From the NCBI GenBank assembly GCA_000756795.1, contig CCSI01000007.1, forward strand, positions 1 to 64,000: DNA of 64,000 bases, in the 5' to 3' direction. Both the position numbers and the translations under genes were made by a program. Below, piece after piece: positions 6,561 through 32,097 of this stretch (positions are counted from its first letter, which is position 1; every line of letters starts with the position of its first letter). This stretch comes from Qipengyuania vulgaris. Its GTDB lineage: Bacteria > Pseudomonadota > Alphaproteobacteria > Sphingomonadales > Sphingomonadaceae. The notes under the pieces were generated by a model that saw only the letters and a list, made by a program, of their open reading frames with translations, was not told the DNA's origin and ran no database searches.

Positions 6561-7226
6561 TCAGCCCTGGTCGGTTTCGTCGAGAACCCAGTTCGGATCC
6601 CGAGCATCGACATTGCGGGTAAAGGTCCAGATGTCACGGCTCTCGACCGCATCGTCGAGCGAGCCGTCGATGACATTGCCATCCTTGTCGCGCGTGAGTG
6701 ATGCGATATCGGCGACAAACAACACCGAAATCCGCGCAGTGCGTTTGTCGAGATCTGCCGAATGAATGGTCGCGTCCTCGATCCGGATAAGCCGGTTTTC
6801 CAGCTTTTCGCCGGCCGCTTCGCGCGCGTCGATGGCTGCCGAGAAGCCGGCATAGACATCATCGTCGGTCAGTTCGCGCAGGGTTTCCTTGTCGCCGCTC
6901 CAGAACGCTTCGAGGACCATTCCGTAAGCAGCCTTGGCGCCTTCGAGGAAGGCGAGGAGGTCGAAGCGCGGATCGGCGCTGGCAATGGCGCGAATGGCGC
7001 TTTCATTAGCCGAGGAGGCATTGTCCACGCTGCGCAGCTTGACCGGCTGGCGAACCGGCTGCGCGGCGGGCTGGGCGGCAGGCGGCACCTGGCTGTCGGG
7101 CGCATCGAAGCGATGGCGCGCGGGCTCTTCCTCATGCTCGCTACGTTCGCCGAGCACGGAGTAAAGGCGCAGCCCGAGAAAGGCGGCGATAACGGCGAGA
7201 ATGACGATCTCGGTGATCACAATCAA
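6561..7226 (-). CDS. Tim44-like domain protein (TimA-like)
   Basis: The 221-residue protein has one N-terminal membrane helix (residues about 2-25) and a Pro/Ala/Gln-rich linker. The C-terminal Tim44 domain starts near residue 75, with DPRFDLLAFLEGAKAAYGMVLEAFWSGD and a final strand ending in WTFTRNVDARDPNWVL. Bacterial Tim44-like proteins are inner-membrane, and some have been linked to membrane-protein interactions. The head-to-head arrangement with secB across a 229-base gap is a common alphaproteobacterial arrangement and hints at shared control with protein export. It heads the mltA operon. Confidence 0.88.
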   Translation of the reverse strand: MIVITEIVILAVIAAFLGLRLYSVLGERSEHEEEPARHRFDAPDSQVPPAAQPAAQPVRQPVKLRSVDNASSANESAIRAIASADPRFDLLAFLEGAKAAYGMVLEAFWSGDKETLRELTDDDVYAGFSAAIDAREAAGEKLENRLIRIEDATIHSADLDKRTARISVLFVADIASLTRDKDGNVIDGSLDDAVESRDIWTFTRNVDARDPNWVLDETDQG

Positions 7227-7455
7227 TTGTCCAATCAGGTGTTCTTGTCTGCCTACGTGCCACGTGGGCGTGCAGTTCCATATATACCTGCCTTAGATAG
7301 GGAGGAATTACAAACGGGCAATGACCTGCCGCACGCCATTTGCGGCGCATTGCTCCGCTCGGCGGGGAGTGCTAGGCGCGCCCACGAACCTTAGACGGGT
7401 AGCCGAGGGGCCGCCCAAACTCCCGATTCGATTTACGTGAAAGCAGTGATTTCCC

Positions 7456-7986
7456 ATGGCCGATGAAAACGATGTACTGACCGACCTCAACACGGATCCC
7501 GCAGCCGGTGCCAATGGCGCAGACAACCGCCCGACCGTCGGCGTTATCAACCAGTACATCAAGGATCTCTCGGTCGAGAACCCGAATGCTCCCAAAAGCT
7601 ACCAGTGGAAGGAGCAGCCCAAGATCGACGTGCAGGTGAATATTGCATCGCAGCAGATCACCGACGAAGTGCATGAAGTCGAACTAAAGCTGACAGCGCG
7701 CGCTGATACGGAACAGGGCAATCTCTATATCGTCGAGCTGTCATATTGCGGCCTCGTCGGCATCCGCAATGTTCCTGACGAACACGCGCACGGCTTCCTC
7801 TTTGCCGAGACGCCGCGCCTGCTCTTCCCCTTCGCGCGCTCGATTATTGCCGAAGCGACCCAGAACCTTGGTTTCCCGCCGCTGATGCTCGATCCGATGG
7901 ATTTCGACGCACTGTACCAGCAGCAGCTCCAGGCCCGCGCGGCGCAGCAGGGCGAAAACGCTCCTGCACCGGCCGGCGACGCCTGA
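7456..7986 (+). CDS. secB: Protein-export chaperone SecB
   Basis: SecB is a cytoplasmic tetrameric chaperone that keeps preproteins unfolded and delivers them to SecA. The 176-residue protein carries the typical core QPKIDVQVNIASQQ followed by YIVELSYCGLVGI and the HAFLFAEaPRLLFPFARS-like stretch (here HGFLFAETPRLLFPFARSII). It also has GFPPLMLDPMDF. It has the acidic N-terminus and Ala/Gln-rich tail usual in alphaproteobacterial SecB. The Shine-Dalgarno is weak. murJ follows after 22 bases. Confidence 0.96.
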   Translation: MADENDVLTDLNTDPAAGANGADNRPTVGVINQYIKDLSVENPNAPKSYQWKEQPKIDVQVNIASQQITDEVHEVELKLTARADTEQGNLYIVELSYCGLVGIRNVPDEHAHGFLFAETPRLLFPFARSIIAEATQNLGFPPLMLDPMDFDALYQQQLQARAAQQGENAPAPAGDA

Positions 7987-8008
7987 TAGACGAAAGACCA
8001 GCTAGGCC

Positions 8009-9613
8009 ATGAGCCTGCTCAAACATGTCGGGACGATCGGCTCGCTCACCATGGTGAGCCGCGTCGCCGGCATGGCGCGCGAAATGATTTTCAGCCGCGT
8101 GCTCGGCGCCAATGCGGTGACCGATGCGTGGTTCCAGGCCTTCATCATCCCCAACGTCTTCCGCCGCCTGTTTGCGGAAGGGGCGTTTTCGGCTGCCTTC
8201 GTGCCGATGTTCTCCAAGCGCCTCCACGGTGACGGAGGACTGGAAAGCGCACGCAGCTTTTCCGACGATGTGCTGAGCATTTTCCTGCCGGTCCTCATCC
8301 TGCTCTGCGCAGTGATGATGATTGCCATGCCCTGGGTCATCTGGGTGCTGTCAGAAAAGCCCATCGATCCGTCCGAGTTCGACATGGCGGTTCAGTTCGC
8401 CCGCATCATGTTCCCCTACATATTGCTGGTCAGCCTCGTGACCTTGTTCACCGGCATGCTGAATTCGGTCAGCCGGTTTGCCCCGGGCGCAAGCTTCCCG
8501 ATTATCCTCAACCTCGTCCTCATCGCCGCGCTTCTCGGCAGCGAATATGCCGCAGAGAATTTCCGCTGGAGCGTGGAGCGGGTCGGCCTCGTGGTCGCCT
8601 GGGCGGTCCCGGTGGCGGGCGTGCTGCAACTCGTGTGGCTCTATACCTGGACGCGGGTGGAGGGGTTCCGCCCGCGTGTCCTGTGGCCGCGCATCACGCC
8701 AGAAGTGAAGCGCCTGTCCATTATCGCCCTGCCCGCGGCCATCGGAGGCGGCGCGTACCAGATCAACACGCTGGTCCAGCTCTACTTCCTCAACCAGCTC
8801 TACGAAGGCTCGGTCAGTCACATGAACTATGCTGACCGGCTGAACCAGCTGCCGCTCGGTATCATCGGTATTGCCTTGTCGACCGCCATCCTGCCGACGC
8901 TGTCGAAGTTCGTCGGCGGCAACAACAAGGAAGGCGCGGACCGCATCCAGTCGGACGCCATCGAACTGTCGATGCTTCTGACCATTCCGGCAGCCGTCGC
9001 CATGGCGATTTGCGCGACGCCCTTCATCACGATGATTTTCCAGGGCGGACGCTTCACCATGGAGGACGCTGCCGCCGCCGGTTCGGTGCTCGGCGTGCTC
9101 GTACTCGGCCTGCCGGCCTATGTGCTGGTGAAGGTGCTGGTGCCCAACTTCTACGCGCGCTCGGACACGAAAACGCCCGTAGTTGCCGCTTTCATCTCGC
9201 TATTCGTTTTCGTCGCAAGCTGCGTATGGAACATCGGCCTCACCTTGCCCGGACTAACCATTGAGCCGCTCGGTTACGGCGTTCCCGGGATTGCTGCCGC
9301 CAGCGTCATCGGCGCATGGATCAACGTCGCTTATCTCTACGCCGTGCTGGTCAAGCGCGGATATTACACCGTTCCGCTCGCCCTGCTGGGCCGCGTGGCG
9401 CGCCAGCTTATCGCCGCTGCCGCCATGGGCGCCGCCTTGTGGTTCGCGCGCGATTTGCTAACCGGCTGGTACTCCGCCGGTCTGTTCGAGCGACTGGGCG
9501 CCTTGCTGGTGCTCGTCGGCTGTTCGGCAGTGGTCTATTTCAGCGTCGCCTTCATGGTCGGCGCCGTCGACAGGCAGCGCATTGCTGCCCTCACCAAGAA
9601 GAGAGTTCCCTAA
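8009..9613 (+). CDS. murJ: Lipid II flippase MurJ
   Basis: MurJ (MviN) moves lipid II across the inner membrane for peptidoglycan synthesis. The 534-residue protein has about 14 hydrophobic segments and the family N-terminus, with SRVAGMAREMIFSRVLG and GAFSAAFVPMFS. ANFYARSDTKTPV-like sequence (here VPNFYARSDTKTPV) marks the conserved cytoplasmic loop. It sits between secB and trpS, 22 bases after the former and 6 before the latter, so the three are probably cotranscribed. Confidence 0.96.
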   Translation: MSLLKHVGTIGSLTMVSRVAGMAREMIFSRVLGANAVTDAWFQAFIIPNVFRRLFAEGAFSAAFVPMFSKRLHGDGGLESARSFSDDVLSIFLPVLILLCAVMMIAMPWVIWVLSEKPIDPSEFDMAVQFARIMFPYILLVSLVTLFTGMLNSVSRFAPGASFPIILNLVLIAALLGSEYAAENFRWSVERVGLVVAWAVPVAGVLQLVWLYTWTRVEGFRPRVLWPRITPEVKRLSIIALPAAIGGGAYQINTLVQLYFLNQLYEGSVSHMNYADRLNQLPLGIIGIALSTAILPTLSKFVGGNNKEGADRIQSDAIELSMLLTIPAAVAMAICATPFITMIFQGGRFTMEDAAAAGSVLGVLVLGLPAYVLVKVLVPNFYARSDTKTPVVAAFISLFVFVASCVWNIGLTLPGLTIEPLGYGVPGIAAASVIGAWINVAYLYAVLVKRGYYTVPLALLGRVARQLIAAAAMGAALWFARDLLTGWYSAGLFERLGALLVLVGCSAVVYFSVAFMVGAVDRQRIAALTKKRVP

Positions 9614-24590: not shown

Positions 24591-27500
24591 CTATTCCGCC
24601 GCGATCGCGAGGCCGTCGTCGTCCTCGTCGTCGGCGAGCGACTTGAGTTCGACATTGAGACCCAGGCTGCGCATTTCCTTGACGAGAACGTTGAAGCTCT
24701 CGGGAATGCCGGCCTCGAAGGTGTCGTCACCCTTGACGATGGCTTCGTAGACCTTGGTACGGCCGATGACGTCGTCCGACTTGACGGTGAGGATTTCCTG
24801 CAGCGTGTAGGCTGCACCGTAAGCCTGGAGTGCCCAGACCTCCATCTCACCGAAGCGCTGGCCGCCGAACTGCGCCTTACCGCCCAGCGGCTGCTGGGTG
24901 ACGAGGCTGTAGGGGCCGATCGAACGGGCGTGGATCTTGTCGTCCACGAGGTGGTGCAGCTTGAGCATGTAGATGATGCCCACGGTGACCTTGCGGTCGA
25001 ATGCTTCACCGGTGCGCCCGTCGAAGAGGACCGACTGGCCGTCAGCATCGAGGCCTGCCTTTTCCAGTTCCACGGTCACATCGCCTTCGCGCGCGCCGTC
25101 GAACACCGGGGTACCCATCGGGACGCCGCGGGCAAGGTTGCCTGCAAGCTCGACGATTTCCTCGGTCGAACGCGATTTGAGGTCTTCGGCGTAACGGTCG
25201 CCATAGACTTCGTTCAGGCGCTCGATCACGGCTTCGGGCGGCTTCGCCTTGGCGTAGTCTTCCGAAGCGTTCGGGTTGGCCTTCTTCCAGTCTTCGAGCT
25301 GCTCGCCGATCTGCATGCCCAGGTTACGGGCTGCCATGCCGAGATGCGTTTCGAAAATCTGTCCGACGTTCATGCGGCTAGGCACGCCCAGCGGGTTGAG
25401 GACGATATCGACCGGCGTACCGTCGGCGAGGAACGGCATGTCCTCCACCGGCAGGATGCGGCTGATGACACCCTTGTTCCCGTGACGGCCAGCCATCTTG
25501 TCGCCCGGCTGGAGCTTGCGCTTCACGGCAACGAAGACCTTGACCATCTTGAGCACGCCCGGGGCGAGTTCGTCACCACGCTCGAGCTTTTCCTTACGGT
25601 CTTCGAACTTGTCGTCGATGACCTTCACGCTCTCGTCGTACTGCGACTTGACCGCTTCGAGCTGGGCCTGGCGATTGTCGTCGGCAACGGCGAACTTGAA
25701 CCACTCGTGCTTGTCGACACCTTCGAGCACATCCTCGGTGATTTCCGTGCCCTTCTTCACGCCCTTGGGCGCTGCCGAAGCCGTCTGGCCGACGAGCATG
25801 TCGCGCAGGCGGTTGTAGGTTGCACGGTTGAGGATGGCGCGTTCGTCGGCGGCGTCCTTGCGGAGGCGTTCGATTTCCTCGTTCTGGATGGCGCGCGTAC
25901 GGTCGTCGATTTCGATACCGTGGCGGTTGAAGACACGGACTTCGACGACGGTACCGGCAACGCCCGGCGGCAGGCGGAGCGAGGTGTCGCGCACGTCGCT
26001 GGCCTTTTCGCCGAAGATGGCGCGCAGGAGCTTTTCTTCCGGCGTCATCGGGCTTTCGCCCTTCGGCGTGATCTTGCCTGCGAGGATATCGCCCGGGTGC
26101 ACTTCGGCGCCGATGTAGACGATGCCCGCTTCGTCGAGGTTGCGCAGCGCTTCCTCGCCGACGTTCGGGATGTCGCGGGTGATGTCTTCGGGCCCGAGCT
26201 TGGTGTCGCGGGCCATGACTTCGAATTCCTCGATGTGGATCGAGGTGAAGACGTCGTCCTTCACGATACGCTCGGAGATGAGGATACTGTCTTCGTAGTT
26301 GTATCCGTTCCACGGCATGAAGGCGACGAGGCTGTTGCGGCCCAGTGCCAGTTCGCCGAGGTCGGTCGAAGGACCGTCGGCAATCACGTCGCCCGGCTCG
26401 ACCGTTTCACCGACCTTCACCAGCGGACGCTGGTTGATGCAGGTGTCCTGGTTCGAACGCTGGAACTTCTGCAGCGTGTAGATGTCGACGCCCGACTGGC
26501 CGGGTTCGACATCGCCGATGGCGCGGATGACGATACGCGTCGCGTCGACCTGGTCGACCACGCCGCCACGCTTGGCGGTGATGGCCGCGCCCGAATCGCG
26601 CGCAACGGTTTCTTCCATGCCGGTGCCGACCCAGGGCGCTTCCGCCTGGACGAGCGGCACGGCCTGGCGCTGCATGTTGGCGCCCATCAGTGCGCGGTTT
26701 GCGTCATCGTTTTCCAGGAACGGAATGAGCGATGCACCGACCGAGACGAGCTGCTTGGGCGAAACGTCCATCAGCGTGATGGTTTCACGCGGAGCCATGA
26801 GGTTGTCGCCGGCCTGACGGGCCGAGACCAGCTCTTCCACGAAGCCGCCCTTGTCGTCGAGTTCGGCCGAAGCCTGTGCGACAGTGTGCTTCTGCTCTTC
26901 CATCGCCGAGAGGTAGATGACCTCGTCGGTGACCTTGTTGTCCTTCACCTTGCGATACGGCGTTTCGATGAAGCCGTACTTGTTGACGCGCGCGAAGGTC
27001 GAGAGCGAGTTGATGAGACCGATGTTCGGGCCTTCCGGCGTTTCGATCGGGCAGATACGGCCATAGTGCGTCGGGTGAACGTCGCGGACTTCGAAGCCTG
27101 CGCGCTCACGCGTAAGGCCGCCCGGGCCAAGCGCCGAAACGCGGCGCTTGTGGGTGACTTCCGAAAGCGGGTTGGTCTGGTCCATGAACTGCGAGAGCTG
27201 GCTGGAGCCGAAGAACTCGCGCACGGCAGCCACGGCGGGCTTGGCGTTGATGAGGTCGTTCGGCATCACGGTCGACACATCGACCGAGCTCATGCGCTCC
27301 TTCACCGCGCGTTCCATGCGCAGCAGGCCGACGCGGTACTGGTTTTCCAGCAGTTCGCCGACCGAGCGGACACGGCGGTTGCCGAGGTTGTCGATGTCGT
27401 CGACTTCGCCCTTGCCATCCTTCAGGTCGACCAGTTCCTTGACCACGGCGAGGATGTCTTCCTTGCGCAGCGTGGTGACGGTGTCTTCGGCGTCGAGTTC

Positions 27501-28772
27501 AAGACGCATGTTGAGCTTGACGCGGCCGACAGCCGAAAGGTCGTAACGCTCGCCGTCGAAAAACAGGCCTTCGAAGAGCGCTTCTGCGGTTTCCTTGGTC
27601 GGCGGTTCGCCGGGACGCATAACCTTGTAGATGGCCTCGAGGCCTTCATCACGGTTCTCGGCCTTGTCGACCTTCATCGTGTTGCGGATCCACGGGCCGG
27701 TGTTGACGTGGTCGATGTCGAGCAGCGTCAGGCTGTCGACGCCGGCAGCGTCGAGAACTTCGAGGTTCTCTGCCGAGACTTCGTCACCGGCTTCGATGTA
27801 GATGCGGCCGGTGCTTTCGTCGATCAGGTCTTCGCTGGCGAAGCGGCCGAAGATTTCCTCGGTCGGAAGCAGCAGAGTTTCAAGACCGTCCTTGGCAGCC
27901 TTGTTGGCAGCGCGCGGCGAAATTTTCTGCGCAGCGGGGAAGACTTCTTCGCCCGTCTTGGCATCGACCAGCGGGAAGGCCGGCTTCTGGCCGCGCCAGT
28001 TTTCGGCGACGAAGGGAATTTCCCAGCCGTCCTTGGCGCGCTTCCACACCGACTTGCTGTAGAAGTGCGAGAGGATGTCTTCGCTGTCGAGGCCGAGGGC
28101 ATAGAGCAGCGCGGTGACCGGCAGCTTGCGCTTGCGGTCGATACGCACGTTGACGATATCCTTGGCGTCGAATTCGAAGTCGAGCCAGCTGCCGCGATAA
28201 GGAATGATGCGGGCAGCGAAGAGGAGCTTGCCCGAGCTGTGGGTCTTGCCGCGGTCATGGTCGAACAGCACACCCGGCGAACGGTGCATCTGCGAGACGA
28301 TGACGCGCTCGGTGCCGTTGATGATAAAGGTACCGTTGTCCGTCATCAGGGGCATGTCGCCCATGTAGACGTCCTGCTCCTTGATATCGAGGACCGAGCG
28401 GGTCTCGGTTTCCTGGTCGACTTCGAAGACGATCAGGCGCAGCGTGACCTTCATCGGCGCGGCATAGGTGATGCCGCGCTGCTTGCATTCGACGATGTCG
28501 TGCTTGGGCGGCTCGAGCTCGTAGTGGACGAAGTCGAGTTCGGCAGTGCCGGCGAAGTCGCGCAGCGGGAAGACCGAGCGCAGCGTCTTTTCGAGGCCCG
28601 AAACATGGCCCGCATCCTTGTCGGAGCGCAGGAACTGTTCGTAGCTCTCGCGCTGGACCTCGATGAGGTTGGGCATGTCGACGACTTCATGGATATCGCC
28701 GAAGATCTTGCGGATACGCCGCTTTGCGGTACCCGAAGCCGTGCTGCGGGGTGCCTTCGCCTTGGTAGCCAT
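24591..28772 (-). CDS. rpoB: RNA polymerase beta subunit
   Basis: The 1393-residue beta subunit is full length. The rifampicin region reads [20 protein letters not shown] then [12 protein letters not shown]. It keeps the Asp, His and Ser residues that correspond to E. coli 516, 526 and 531, so it carries none of the commonest resistance substitutions. [12 protein letters not shown], with active-site lysines, is present. Unusually, the upstream neighbour is a divergent phosphatase gene, and rplJ-rplL lie 5 kb away on the other strand. Confidence 0.99.
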
Positions 28773-29132: not shown

Positions 29133-30230
29133 ATGCGCCGACTGTTAATCTGGCTGGTGGCACTGGCGGCCCTGCTTGCAGCGCCGGCGGTCGGCCGCGC
29201 CGAGGAGAAGGTCCCAGCACGGATCGTTGCGATCGGTGACCTTCACGGCGACTTCGGCGCCTGGGAAAAGATCGCTCGCGAAGCCGGATTGATCGACGCG
29301 GACGGAGCGTGGAGCGCGGGTGACGCTACGCTCGTCCAGATGGGCGACATCACCGACCGCGGGCCCGACTCGCTCAAAATCATTCGCCACCTGCAACGGC
29401 TTCAGGAGGAAGCTGCCGACGCGGGCGGCAAGGTTATTGTCCTGCTCGGCAATCACGAGGCGATGAATGTCATCGGTGATCACCGCTATGTCCACCCGGG
29501 CGAATACGAGGCCTTCAGGGATCGCCGCTCCGAAAGCCGCCGCGAGGCCACTTGGAAGGCAAACAAGGAAAACCTGATCGCTTTCTACCGGCAAGCAGAC
29601 CCGGACCTTACGGATAAAGAGATCAAGGCAAAATGGATTGCCGAAACGCCGCTCGGCATGCTTGCGCATCGGCGTGCCTGGATGCCCGAGGGTGAGCTCG
29701 GCAGATGGGCGGCGGGCCTGCCCGCCGCGGTCCAGATTGGCGAGACTCTGTTCGCTCACGGCGGCCTTAGCGAGGAATTCACCCGCGAGCCCATCGAAGC
29801 TATCAACGAGCGCTTCCGCTACGCTCTGGGGCCGGCCCCGCTTACCGACCGCGCCATACTCGAAGACCCGCTCGGACCGCTCTGGTATCGCGGCAATGTC
29901 ATGCGCGAGCCAGTGGCCCAACCGTCGACGCCCACCGAGGGTGACGAGGTAGCCAGCCAATCCTCCGAACCGCGGCCCGGGCGCGCTGAAGAACTTGGCC
30001 TCGTCCTGTCACGCTACGGAGCGCGGCGGCTGGTAGTCGCGCACACCCCCTCAACCATAGGCATTGTGTCCGACCTCGATGGCAAACTGCTCCGGATCGA
30101 TACCGGGATCTCGGCGCATTATGGCGGGTCTGCCAGCTATCTGGTCATCGAAGGCGAAGCGGTGCGCGCGTTCCGCCGCGAGGTGGACGGTAGCTGGAGT
30201 GCACAGCTACTCCCCAAGAGCAGCCCGTGA
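29133..30230 (+). CDS. Exported PPP-family (Shewanella-like) metallophosphatase
   Basis: The 365-residue protein has a Sec signal peptide (cleavage near residue 23) and the PPP phosphoesterase signature set. These are GDLHGD (35-40), GDITDRGPDS (71-80), GNHEA (106-110), then AHGG and AHTP, which supply the dinuclear metal ligands. The pattern fits Shewanella-like protein phosphatases. The target is unknown; a periplasmic or surface phosphoprotein, sugar phosphate or nucleotide are all possible. The start is set by AGGAGG at 29123-29128. Its TGA overlaps the GTG start of the CotH-like gene. Confidence 0.88.
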   Translation: MRRLLIWLVALAALLAAPAVGRAEEKVPARIVAIGDLHGDFGAWEKIAREAGLIDADGAWSAGDATLVQMGDITDRGPDSLKIIRHLQRLQEEAADAGGKVIVLLGNHEAMNVIGDHRYVHPGEYEAFRDRRSESRREATWKANKENLIAFYRQADPDLTDKEIKAKWIAETPLGMLAHRRAWMPEGELGRWAAGLPAAVQIGETLFAHGGLSEEFTREPIEAINERFRYALGPAPLTDRAILEDPLGPLWYRGNVMREPVAQPSTPTEGDEVASQSSEPRPGRAEELGLVLSRYGARRLVVAHTPSTIGIVSDLDGKLLRIDTGISAHYGGSASYLVIEGEAVRAFRREVDGSWSAQLLPKSSP

Positions 30231-31252
30231 AGGTCTTCGCCCCGGCATTCGCGGCGGCAGCTGTTGCGGCGCCGCTGGCGGCACAGGATGACGCAGGTAC
30301 TGTCACGCCGCTTTTTGCTTCCGATACGACGCTGGAAGTGACCCTCACCGGTCCGTTAGATACGATCGCGAAGCGGGCGGAACGTTCGACCAAGCCGCAT
30401 CCGGCCCGGCTCGAGACGGCTGGAGAGATGCACGCGATCACTCTTGCCGCCCGGGGCAAGACCCGGCGGGAGAAGAAGAACTGCCAGTTTCCGCCGCTGC
30501 GCATCGCATTCCCCGACAAGCCGGAGGCGCAATCGCTGTTCTACAGGAACAGCCGGATCAAACTGGTCACCCATTGCCGCGACAATGACCGGTTCGAGCA
30601 GGCGGTGCTGCGCGAATATACCGCATACCGGCTATACAACCGGGTGACGCCCGAGAGCCTGCGCGTCCGCCTCGCGCGTATTACCTACATGGACAATGGC
30701 CAAAAGGTGGCCGAGCGCCTCGGCTTCTTTATCGAAGATGTCGACGATACCGCGCGCAGGCTTGGCCGCAAGGAAGTGGATGTCGTCAAGGTCCCTGTGG
30801 CCGCGCTCGACCAGCAGGATGCCGCGCGATACGCCCTATTCCAGTACCTTATCGGCAATACAGACTGGGCCTTGGCGGTCGGCCCACCGGGCGATCGCTG
30901 CTGCCACAACTCCCGGCTCATCGGGGACAGCGCCGGGGCACGCAGCGGGCTCACCCCCATCCCCTACGACTTCGACAGTTCCGGGTTAGTCAATGCCAGC
31001 TACGCCGTTCCGAACGAGGGGATCCGCGCACGTTCGGTGAGGCAGCGGGTCTATCGCGGCCTGTGCCGCTTCAACGCCCTCGTTCCCGCCGAGGCCGAGC
31101 GGTTTCGCGGCATTAGGAACGAATTCGAGCAGGAAGTCGCGGCCACGCCGCATGTCACGCCACGGTCCCGCGAAAGCATGGCTCGATACCTGGACGGCTT
31201 TTTCAAGGACATCACGAGGCTTGAACAAAAAGTCCTCGCCCATTGCCGCTAG
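30227..31252 (+). CDS. Exported CotH-like (atypical kinase fold) protein
   Basis: I recognise this only by motif. The 341-residue protein has a short signal-like N-terminus (ends near Ala19). It then carries elements in the order seen in CotH-family spore-coat kinases. These are an RIKL strand with Lys112, an LARITYM stretch and GFFIEDVDDTARRLG (166-180) matching the E-x-x-D region. GNTDW (210-214), a downstream HN pair (227-228) and PYDFD (246-250) follow. In CotH the two Asp motifs bind nucleotide and metal. Cys115, Cys225 and Cys226 are extra. The GTG start overlaps the phosphatase stop (GTGA), so the two proteins are probably made together. Kinase activity is inference. Confidence 0.6.
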   Translation: MKVFAPAFAAAAVAAPLAAQDDAGTVTPLFASDTTLEVTLTGPLDTIAKRAERSTKPHPARLETAGEMHAITLAARGKTRREKKNCQFPPLRIAFPDKPEAQSLFYRNSRIKLVTHCRDNDRFEQAVLREYTAYRLYNRVTPESLRVRLARITYMDNGQKVAERLGFFIEDVDDTARRLGRKEVDVVKVPVAALDQQDAARYALFQYLIGNTDWALAVGPPGDRCCHNSRLIGDSAGARSGLTPIPYDFDSSGLVNASYAVPNEGIRARSVRQRVYRGLCRFNALVPAEAERFRGIRNEFEQEVAATPHVTPRSRESMARYLDGFFKDITRLEQKVLAHCR

Positions 31253-31261
31253 CGCGCCGAT

Positions 31262-31942
31262 TTATTTGCTTCCCTCGCCGGATTGTCCGCGATCGTCGTC
31301 ATCCTCGTCATCGAGGGCTGGCGACTTGCTACCGGGTGAGCGCAAATAGCGATGCGTGCCGTCCTTGCCGCCATAATCCGCCATCCAGAGGAAAGCGAAG
31401 GCGTAGTTGAAGGTGATGGTCATCACGAGAGCAATTTCCAGCGCCCCGATGCCCGCGGCAAGCCCGATACCGATCGCGAGCAGGATGTATATTGCATCGC
31501 CGGTGCTCTTGAGCGTGTTACGAAAACGGACGCCGCCGACGATCCCTGCCAGCGAGAAGGCGAGCGCCAGCGAATTGTGCACCATGACAACGATGGCGGT
31601 CACCGCGATGGGAAGCACGATCATCGTTTCGACCAGCGCCTGGTCATATTCGACGCGGCTGCGGCTGGCCATATAGGTCCACGTAAGTGGCACGGTCGTG
31701 AGGACGGCTCCGCCAACGGCGATGAAGAGCCACAAGACCGAACCGCCCAGATTGGCGACCTGCTTTGCAGCGATCCGCACGCCGGTCAGCGGATCTCCGC
31801 TCGACTGGCTGAGCAAGGTTTGTGCCCCACCCAGCGGCATGAAGTCCGCAAGGCCGGGATCGACCATGATCAGGGCGGCGACCGCGCCCGTCACCGACAG
31901 GTAGAAAAGGGTGAGCCGAACGAACAGCTTTCCGACGATCAT
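31262..31942 (-). CDS. DUF4956 family membrane protein
   Basis: The 226-residue inner-membrane protein has four hydrophobic segments. In the middle is the DUF4956-type block LVETMIVLPIAVTAIVVMVHNSLALAFSLAGIVGGVRFRNTLK. The C-terminal tail is very acidic (ALDDEDDDDR). Family members are often found beside polyphosphate or exported-CotH genes. That association, recalled rather than checked, would fit the CotH-like neighbour that converges on it with nine bases between stops. Confidence 0.8.
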   Translation of the reverse strand: MIVGKLFVRLTLFYLSVTGAVAALIMVDPGLADFMPLGGAQTLLSQSSGDPLTGVRIAAKQVANLGGSVLWLFIAVGGAVLTTVPLTWTYMASRSRVEYDQALVETMIVLPIAVTAIVVMVHNSLALAFSLAGIVGGVRFRNTLKSTGDAIYILLAIGIGLAAGIGALEIALVMTITFNYAFAFLWMADYGGKDGTHRYLRSPGSKSPALDDEDDDDRGQSGEGSK

Positions 31943-32013
31943 GCGGCAAGGTCCTCTCCCCACGCCCTATATATCAAAGGGCACAGGGTGCCAAACCGGG
32001 GGCAAATGCAGAC

Positions 32014-32030
32014 ATATCGATTTTCGATAT
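32014..32030. promoter_or_regulatory. Palindromic operator candidate 1
   Basis: ATATCGA and TCGATAT form a perfect 7-bp inverted repeat with a 3-base spacer. It lies just upstream of the -35 box of the DUF2975 operon and shares the core TATCGAT with the adjacent dyad. Confidence 0.6.
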
Positions 32031-32074
32031 TATCGATTGACAATAAGATCGACTCGACTTATTGATTATCGATA
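32031..32074. promoter_or_regulatory. Large imperfect palindrome over the DUF2975 operon promoter
   Basis: TATCGATTGACAATAAG (32031-32047) and CTTATTGATTATCGATA (32058-32074) pair at 14 of 17 positions around a 10-base centre. The dyad covers the candidate promoter entirely, so a protein bound here would block transcription. The XRE regulator encoded in the same operon is the obvious candidate. Confidence 0.65.
32037..32065 (+). promoter_or_regulatory. Candidate promoter of the DUF2975-XRE operon
   Basis: A consensus TTGACA (32037-32042) and TATTGA (32060-32065) are separated by 17 bases. Transcription would start about 25 bases before the 42-residue ORF. Confidence 0.6.
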
Positions 32075-32097
32075 TTGACCATCAAGGAGTTCGATAA

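Follow-up and report, generated by a model that had tools for sequence, protein, structure and literature searches.

Introduction

Among the described systems closest to the locus reported here are two that contain the kinase CotH. Changes of D228 and D251 inactivate the CotH of Bacillus subtilis (PMC7821199). In Gram-positive bacteria the pel genes are accompanied by genes for a polyphosphate polymerase, CotH, DUF4832 and DUF4956, and CotH has been suggested to regulate Pel through phosphorylation (PMC7112168). In Streptococcus intermedius, Pel decreased when the CotH-like SIR_1594 was removed and increased when the membrane-protein gene SIR_1592 was, and the authors did not find the three-gene order beyond the Pel locus (PMC12345266); by way of PMC7112168, we infer that SIR_1592 is a DUF4956 gene. 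A Zetaproteobacterial CotH-domain protein has been described as Sfz6 (PMC8250860), and bacterial PPP phosphatases in general carry a five-motif signature according to the source that also defines the Shewanella-like group (PMC535813). Here we report a locus in a 64,000-nucleotide stretch of Qipengyuania vulgaris DNA (contig CCSI01000007.1, positions 1 to 64,000; hereafter the window), in which a PPP-family phosphatase gene overlaps the gene of a CotH-like, kinase-like protein and is accompanied by a convergent DUF4956 gene, and which we take for a Gram-negative form, new to the literature searched, of the association already known between CotH and DUF4956.

On balance, and with considerable reserve, we think it probable that an exported, divergent CotH-like kinase and an exported Shewanella-like PPP phosphatase are translationally coupled and form, together with DUF4956 as a presumed inner-membrane protein, a joint extracytoplasmic phosphorylation module. 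Much has been written about reversible phosphorylation in the cytoplasm, but to our knowledge very little about such a process outside it in Gram-negative bacteria, in part for want of a known source of ATP. With a compact and conserved set in which a membrane partner joins a CotH-fold kinase and a phosphatase, both exported-looking, the question of extracytoplasmic phosphorylation would become testable, and DUF4956, whose function Pfam lists as unknown, would be placed in a setting. The pairing of a CotH-like kinase with a PPP phosphatase was not named in the titles and abstract openings that we found in the openly licensed literature.

Results

Layout of the locus

The features on which the following analysis rests are listed below.

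29133..30230, plus strand: gene for a PPP-family metallophosphatase assigned as Shewanella-like, with a signal-peptide-like start, 365 amino acids (Pfam Metallophos, E 7.7e-12; PDB 2z72, E 2.3e-24; PPP motifs)
29133..29204, plus strand: probable signal peptide of the phosphatase, approximate (by eye; loose heuristic on relatives)
30227..30230, plus strand: GTGA stop/start overlap (sequence; ATGA or TTGA in 7/9 family relatives)
30227..31252, plus strand: gene for a putative CotH-like atypical kinase with a signal-peptide-like start, 341 amino acids (AlphaFold2 model; Foldseek match to 5jd9; conserved catalytic residues)
30227..30286, plus strand: probable signal peptide of the kinase-like protein, approximate (by eye; loose heuristic on relatives)
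30863..30865, plus strand: D213, by motif order the putative counterpart of catalytic D228 of B. subtilis CotH (D in 77/78 rows, E in one; N-x-D in canonical CotH)
30968..30976, plus strand: D248-F249-D250, D248 being by motif order the putative counterpart of D251 of B. subtilis CotH (78/78 rows; W/Y-D in canonical CotH)
31262..31963, minus strand: convergent DUF4956 gene, 233 amino acids, probably a membrane protein, alternative start ATG at 31942 (Pfam E 4.8e-9; helical model; near the kinase-like gene in 55/88 loci)

The phosphatase gene begins with an ATG preceded by AGGAGG, and its stop codon shares the four bases GTGA with the GTG start of the kinase-like gene, which is the overlap that the original prediction had pointed out; a four-base overlap of the same kind could be read in seven of the nine family relatives whose loci were fetched. 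The end of the DUF4956 gene lies 9 bp from the stop of the kinase-like gene. The ratio of nonsynonymous to synonymous substitution (dN/dS), calculated against two relatives, was 0.14-0.21 for the phosphatase/kinase-like pair and 0.09-0.12 for DUF4956, indicating purifying selection, and among the fetched loci the closest one was that of Qipengyuania polymorpha, with 89% identity in the kinase-like protein.

Predicted fold and active site of the kinase-like protein

A CotH fold had initially been proposed for this protein from the order of its motifs RIKL, GFFIE, GNTDW (containing D213) and PYDFD (containing D248 and D250). All four are present, and structure prediction agrees with the proposal: when an AlphaFold2 model based on a 78-sequence alignment (predicted local distance difference test [pLDDT] 94.3, predicted template modelling score [pTM] 0.90) was compared with the PDB using Foldseek, the first and the second match were structures of Bacillus cereus CotH (5jd9, E 1.4e-11, template modelling [TM] score 0.57; 5jda, E 5.5e-11, TM score 0.55), with a probability of 1.00. 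The third was a phosphatidylinositol 4-kinase (E 6.3e-4). The sequence profiles of the kinase-like family found no match among PDB chains, and the Pfam CotH domain (PF08757) matched 19 of the 78 aligned rows at E <= 0.1, with 9.5e-7 as the lowest value. Proteins with a CotH domain are in themselves no rarity in the phylum of the window: 29 of 398 genomes hold one above the Pfam cut-off, and 18 of the 30 phylum genomes with a CotH match belong to one genus. Neither the kinase-like nor the DUF4956 protein had a match in PHROGs.

Residues R76, R80, C86, C117, E130, E170, N211, H227, N228, Y247, D248, F249 and D250, among others, are invariant in all 78 rows, while K112, D213 (glutamate in the remaining row) and C280 are each kept in 77. 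The order N-x-D followed by W/Y-D matches that of canonical CotH, so that D213 and D248 would correspond to D228 and D251 of the B. subtilis enzyme, a mapping made by motif order and not by structural overlay. Between the two Asp motifs lies a CCHN segment, which is missing from ten canonical CotH domains. This segment, and the fact that other kinase-fold families have changed their reaction, could be taken as a sign that the fold performs another transfer, e.g. nucleotidylation, or that the protein is a pseudoenzyme scaffolding the phosphatase; against this, no fewer than 77 of the 78 rows retain each residue expected for catalysis, in contrast to most pseudokinases, and we consider such an explanation very unlikely.

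In the Sphingomonas sediminicola locus (L067), matches to the kinase-like protein lie in two overlapping frames (6875-8020 and 7435-7944), suggesting a gene that looks degraded, and no PPP match was found in that genome.

The phosphatase

Besides the Pfam Metallophos match, the phosphatase has Shewanella phosphatases as its best PDB sequence matches, the next kind of protein following at 2e-4, and it is by this best match that we assign it, on sequence grounds, to the Shewanella-like group. It carries all five motifs (GDLHG, GDITDRG, GNHE, HGG and IDTG), with 99 residues between GNHE and H(A/G)G, and the patterns GDxHG, GDxxDRG, GNH(E/D), H(A/G)G and (I/L/V)D(S/T)G were found in 29, 32, 34, 34 and 22 of 34 aligned rows, respectively. 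PHROGs returned general phosphatase/phosphoesterase families only. In Woeseiaceae-type loci (L074 5061-6947 and similar ones), the PPP frame extends to about 610-660 amino acids, and the extra part has no Pfam match of its own.

Co-occurrence in genomes

Genomes were sampled at the level of the window's phylum (398) and of its taxonomic family (199), many of them being incomplete. The phylum sample contained the kinase-like gene in two genomes, and at E <= 1e-100 the PPP gene was found in those same two. Because this number was so small, co-occurrence was tested in the family and in the genomes of the fetched loci. When the family genomes were searched for the three genes, full-length PPP relatives were found in ten (E <= 2.1e-86, the next best match having 7.0e-19), DUF4956 likewise in ten, and the kinase-like gene in 11, one copy being a fragment; the kinase-like gene, the full-length PPP gene and DUF4956 occurred together in the same ten of the 199 genomes. 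The fragment, which contains two TGA codons, comes from a genome with neither DUF4956 nor a full-length PPP match (G126, loci L011/L021). A tblastn search of a plasmid collection found no relative, and PADLOC reported no defence-system match.

Gene neighbourhood

A scan of genome contigs confirmed at least 553 relatives of the kinase-like protein among at least 589 pattern matches. The best 80 were taken together with the nine family loci, and after removal of L037, a copy of L017, 88 loci remained, a choice that favours close relatives and that covers Pseudomonadota, Bacteroidota and one member of Gemmatimonadota. Neighbours were identified with single-family profiles; clustering of all open reading frames was muddied by shadow frames. 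In this set, the PPP gene adjoins the kinase-like gene in 64 loci, lying upstream in the same direction in 34, convergent in 13, divergent in 13 and downstream in the same direction in four. DUF4956 is near the kinase-like gene in 55 loci, and both partners are present in 46. On a tree of 89 sequences, built with a quick method and having 31 of its 86 inner branches weakly supported, the four PPP arrangements need at least five changes.

In all nine fetched family relatives the three genes stand together, the kinase-like gene and DUF4956 being about 0.8 kb apart in three of them, and in the window and in most of the nine the cluster is near rpoB or the gene for ribosomal protein L10. Since this is a stable region, one might argue that unrelated genes merely share a place beside rpoB and have no joint function. 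That we find scarcely credible: locus L020 has no rpoB or L10 match within 14 kb, the adjacency outlasts the changes of arrangement counted above, and the co-occurrence in the 199 family genomes is exact. Pairing in relatives, which the original prediction had proposed as a check, is conserved, in the same genomes and in several arrangements.

The 24 loci without an adjacent PPP gene come from 23 genomes, 14 of which do contain a strong PPP match (E <= 1e-100). The possibility that these matches are lone copies was rejected, as in 11 of the 14 the PPP gene adjoins a second kinase-like copy (G199 [L084], G205, G599, G603, G209, G206, G598, G207, G208, G595 and G604, where in the last two the copies are incomplete or located at the end of a contig). 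Therefore, several of the loci lacking PPP are second copies in genomes with the full set, a result that slightly favours the pairing. In G596 a kinase-like gene is about 2 kb from the PPP gene, in G600 and G601 no kinase-like gene was found within the 7 kb fetched around it, and G208, G595 and G604 hold a second PPP gene with no kinase-like gene in the fetched stretch. Gammaproteobacterial genomes (loci L151, L152, L154, L157, L158, L160 and L162) carry at least two kinase-like copies each, one of which belongs to a full set of PPP, kinase-like, hydrolase-like and DUF4956 genes.

Two further neighbours recur. A hydrolase-like gene, named by eye, directly follows the kinase-like gene in 13 of the 88 loci (e.g. 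L074 8062-9039), and the single copy scanned had no Pfam match. A gene for an SdiA-regulated or phytase-like propeller lies near in 20 loci; it runs in the direction opposite to that of the kinase-like gene and is downstream of it in 19 of them. The propeller can be read as a hint that the module is not a protein switch but acts on a small molecule, a lipid or a surface polysaccharide, in which case a glycan or lipid headgroup would be phosphorylated during envelope or exopolysaccharide building and the phosphatase would trim or recycle it. The same is suggested by the rank of phosphatidylinositol kinases as the next fold matches after CotH and by the Pel effects of removing SIR_1594 and SIR_1592 in S. 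intermedius (PMC12345266). However, CotH itself phosphorylates proteins (PMC7821199), and among the neighbours of the pair, whose annotation is not exhaustive, we recognised no genes for polysaccharides; we regard this reading as unlikely, if still worth serious attention.

Possible export of the two proteins

By eye, the N-termini of both the phosphatase and the kinase-like protein resemble signal peptides, in line with the export initially claimed for them. A crude heuristic called 55 of 64 PPP relatives and 82 of 88 kinase-like relatives signal-like, and the difference between the kinase-like set and ribosomal L10 controls was clear (Fisher, 1.8e-8), the heuristic being loose because it also called 7 of the 21 controls. 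The conserved cysteines C86, C117 and C280 fit an oxidising compartment, i.e. the periplasm. Taken together, these features suggest that both proteins may be exported.

DUF4956 and its possible links to polyphosphate

The protein encoded by the convergent gene scored 36.6 bits against the DUF4956 domain (PF16316), above the cut-off of 30.6, and all 39 rows of its alignment match Pfam at E <= 0.01. Its model is helical (pLDDT 80.4), consistent with what is probably a membrane protein; the best PDB match to this model (E 0.95) was not significant, and therefore a role cannot be read from the structure. The original suggestion that this gene may belong to the same system gains support from its presence in the same ten family genomes and near the kinase-like gene in most of the 88 loci. 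In two loci where the usual DUF4956 is missing, a weak DUF4956-like gene was seen near the kinase-like gene, in L040 (8025-8774) by a Pfam scan (E 4.5e-4, below the cut-off) and in L048 (8975-9805) by eye.

A PPK2 gene lies directly upstream of DUF4956 and on the same strand in ten of the 88 loci (including L042 8699-9589 and L017 4842-5729), and the eight of these neighbours that were scanned all match Pfam PPK2. Together with the Gram-positive Pel loci, where DUF4956 is found in the company of CotH and of a polyphosphate polymerase (PMC7112168), and with the genomes of Corynebacterium glutamicum and Methanosarcina acetivorans, which served as controls and each of which has matches to CotH, DUF4956 and the VTC polyphosphate polymerase, this could point to a polyphosphate or phosphoryl-donor system, in which DUF4956 would act at the inner membrane by moving or sensing polyphosphate, or a nucleotide, which the enzymes outside would use or hydrolyse. 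As an account of the locus this seems to us decidedly unlikely, since the window's genome, the one searched for VTC besides the controls, has no match to it, all loci with a PPK2 neighbour fall into one Sphingomonas-type clade of the tree and may reflect an accident of lineage, and DUF4956 resembles no known fold in the PDB at a significant level. The company that DUF4956 keeps with polyphosphate enzymes, VTC in Gram-positive bacteria and PPK2 in one clade, is a lead and not a result. A related and more specific proposal, which we hold to be quite improbable, is that DUF4956 carries a polyphosphate- or nucleotide-derived donor across the inner membrane to the exported CotH-fold kinase, which the exported PPP phosphatase opposes, the whole being a so far unnamed system of reversible extracytoplasmic phosphorylation in Gram-negative bacteria.

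Flanking sequences

The cluster is flanked on one side by rpoB (24591-28772, minus strand; named by eye) and on the other by a DUF2975 gene and by the genes for ribosomal proteins L10 and L7/L12, both named by eye. A promoter scan found no promoter, and terminator-like sites numbered 8 against 2.9 expected, a count not used in the reading. Between the DUF4956 and DUF2975 genes, at 32011-32076, a 16-nucleotide repeat, TATCGATTTTCGATAT, occurs with its variants (75-88%) in three copies accompanied by inverted repeats; this array is perhaps an operator.

Discussion

The data best support a common function, exerted outside the cytoplasm, of a putative kinase with the CotH fold, a PPP phosphatase and a partner in the membrane. 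The pairing would be explained most simply if the enzymes were antagonists acting on a shared substrate: the kinase would phosphorylate an envelope or surface substrate, be it a protein or a glycan, the phosphatase would remove that phosphate, and DUF4956 might connect both enzymes with the membrane or with a source of phosphoryl donor.

Several observations weigh against this reading. The kinase-like protein reached 14.3 bits against the Pfam CotH domain (E 0.029), short of the gathering cut-off of 23.8, and therefore we call it a divergent CotH-like family; a comparison of its family with ten Pfam-passing CotH domains by hhalign gave a probability of 52.5% and an E value of 1.4e-4 over 75 columns, covering only part of the N-terminal half. 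Furthermore, ATP is not known to be present in the periplasm. Eight more of the 398 phylum genomes have weaker PPP matches (1e-31 to 1e-39) and no kinase-like gene, and the PPP profile derives from copies that adjoin the kinase-like gene, with two of the 14 genomes discussed above (G199 and G205) contributing rows, so that its specificity is partly built in. Neither PPP nor DUF4956 was present, within the stretch covered, in 15 of the 88 loci, several of which end at contig ends and several of which are second copies. Finally, in 9 of the 23 genomes lacking an adjacent PPP gene no PPP match reaches E <= 1e-100, and hence the pair is not obligate; these nine include the sphingomonads Qipengyuania xiamenensis, Q. 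proteolytica and Sphingomicrobium lutaoense, in which the kinase-like gene is retained along with DUF4956. The possible periplasmic phospho-switch originally envisaged is supported in part: the CotH fold of the model, the conserved pairing and the association with DUF4956 speak for it, while the two enzymes do not invariably come together.

Set beside known systems, the putative joint module of CotH-like kinase, PPP phosphatase and DUF4956 has three points of reference. With the spore-coat protein kinase CotH of Bacillus cereus (PDB 5jd9 and 5jda), the kinase-like protein shares the predicted fold and the order of the catalytic motifs, but it is only 12-13% identical in the structural match and below the cut-off in Pfam, has the additional CCHN segment and conserved cysteines, and is a Gram-negative protein partnered by a phosphatase gene. 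The phosphatase resembles the Shewanella-like phosphatases, or Shelphs (PDB 1v73 and 2z72), in its PPP motifs, in the IDTG motif and in its best PDB sequence match, and differs from them in that its gene is coupled to a CotH-like gene. The Gram-positive Pel loci, as presented in PMC7112168 and PMC12345266, resemble the window in combining a CotH-like protein, secreted there and predicted to be exported here, with DUF4956 as a probable membrane protein, whereas at the window locus a PPP gene is present, no Pel genes were recognised, and the genome has no VTC match.

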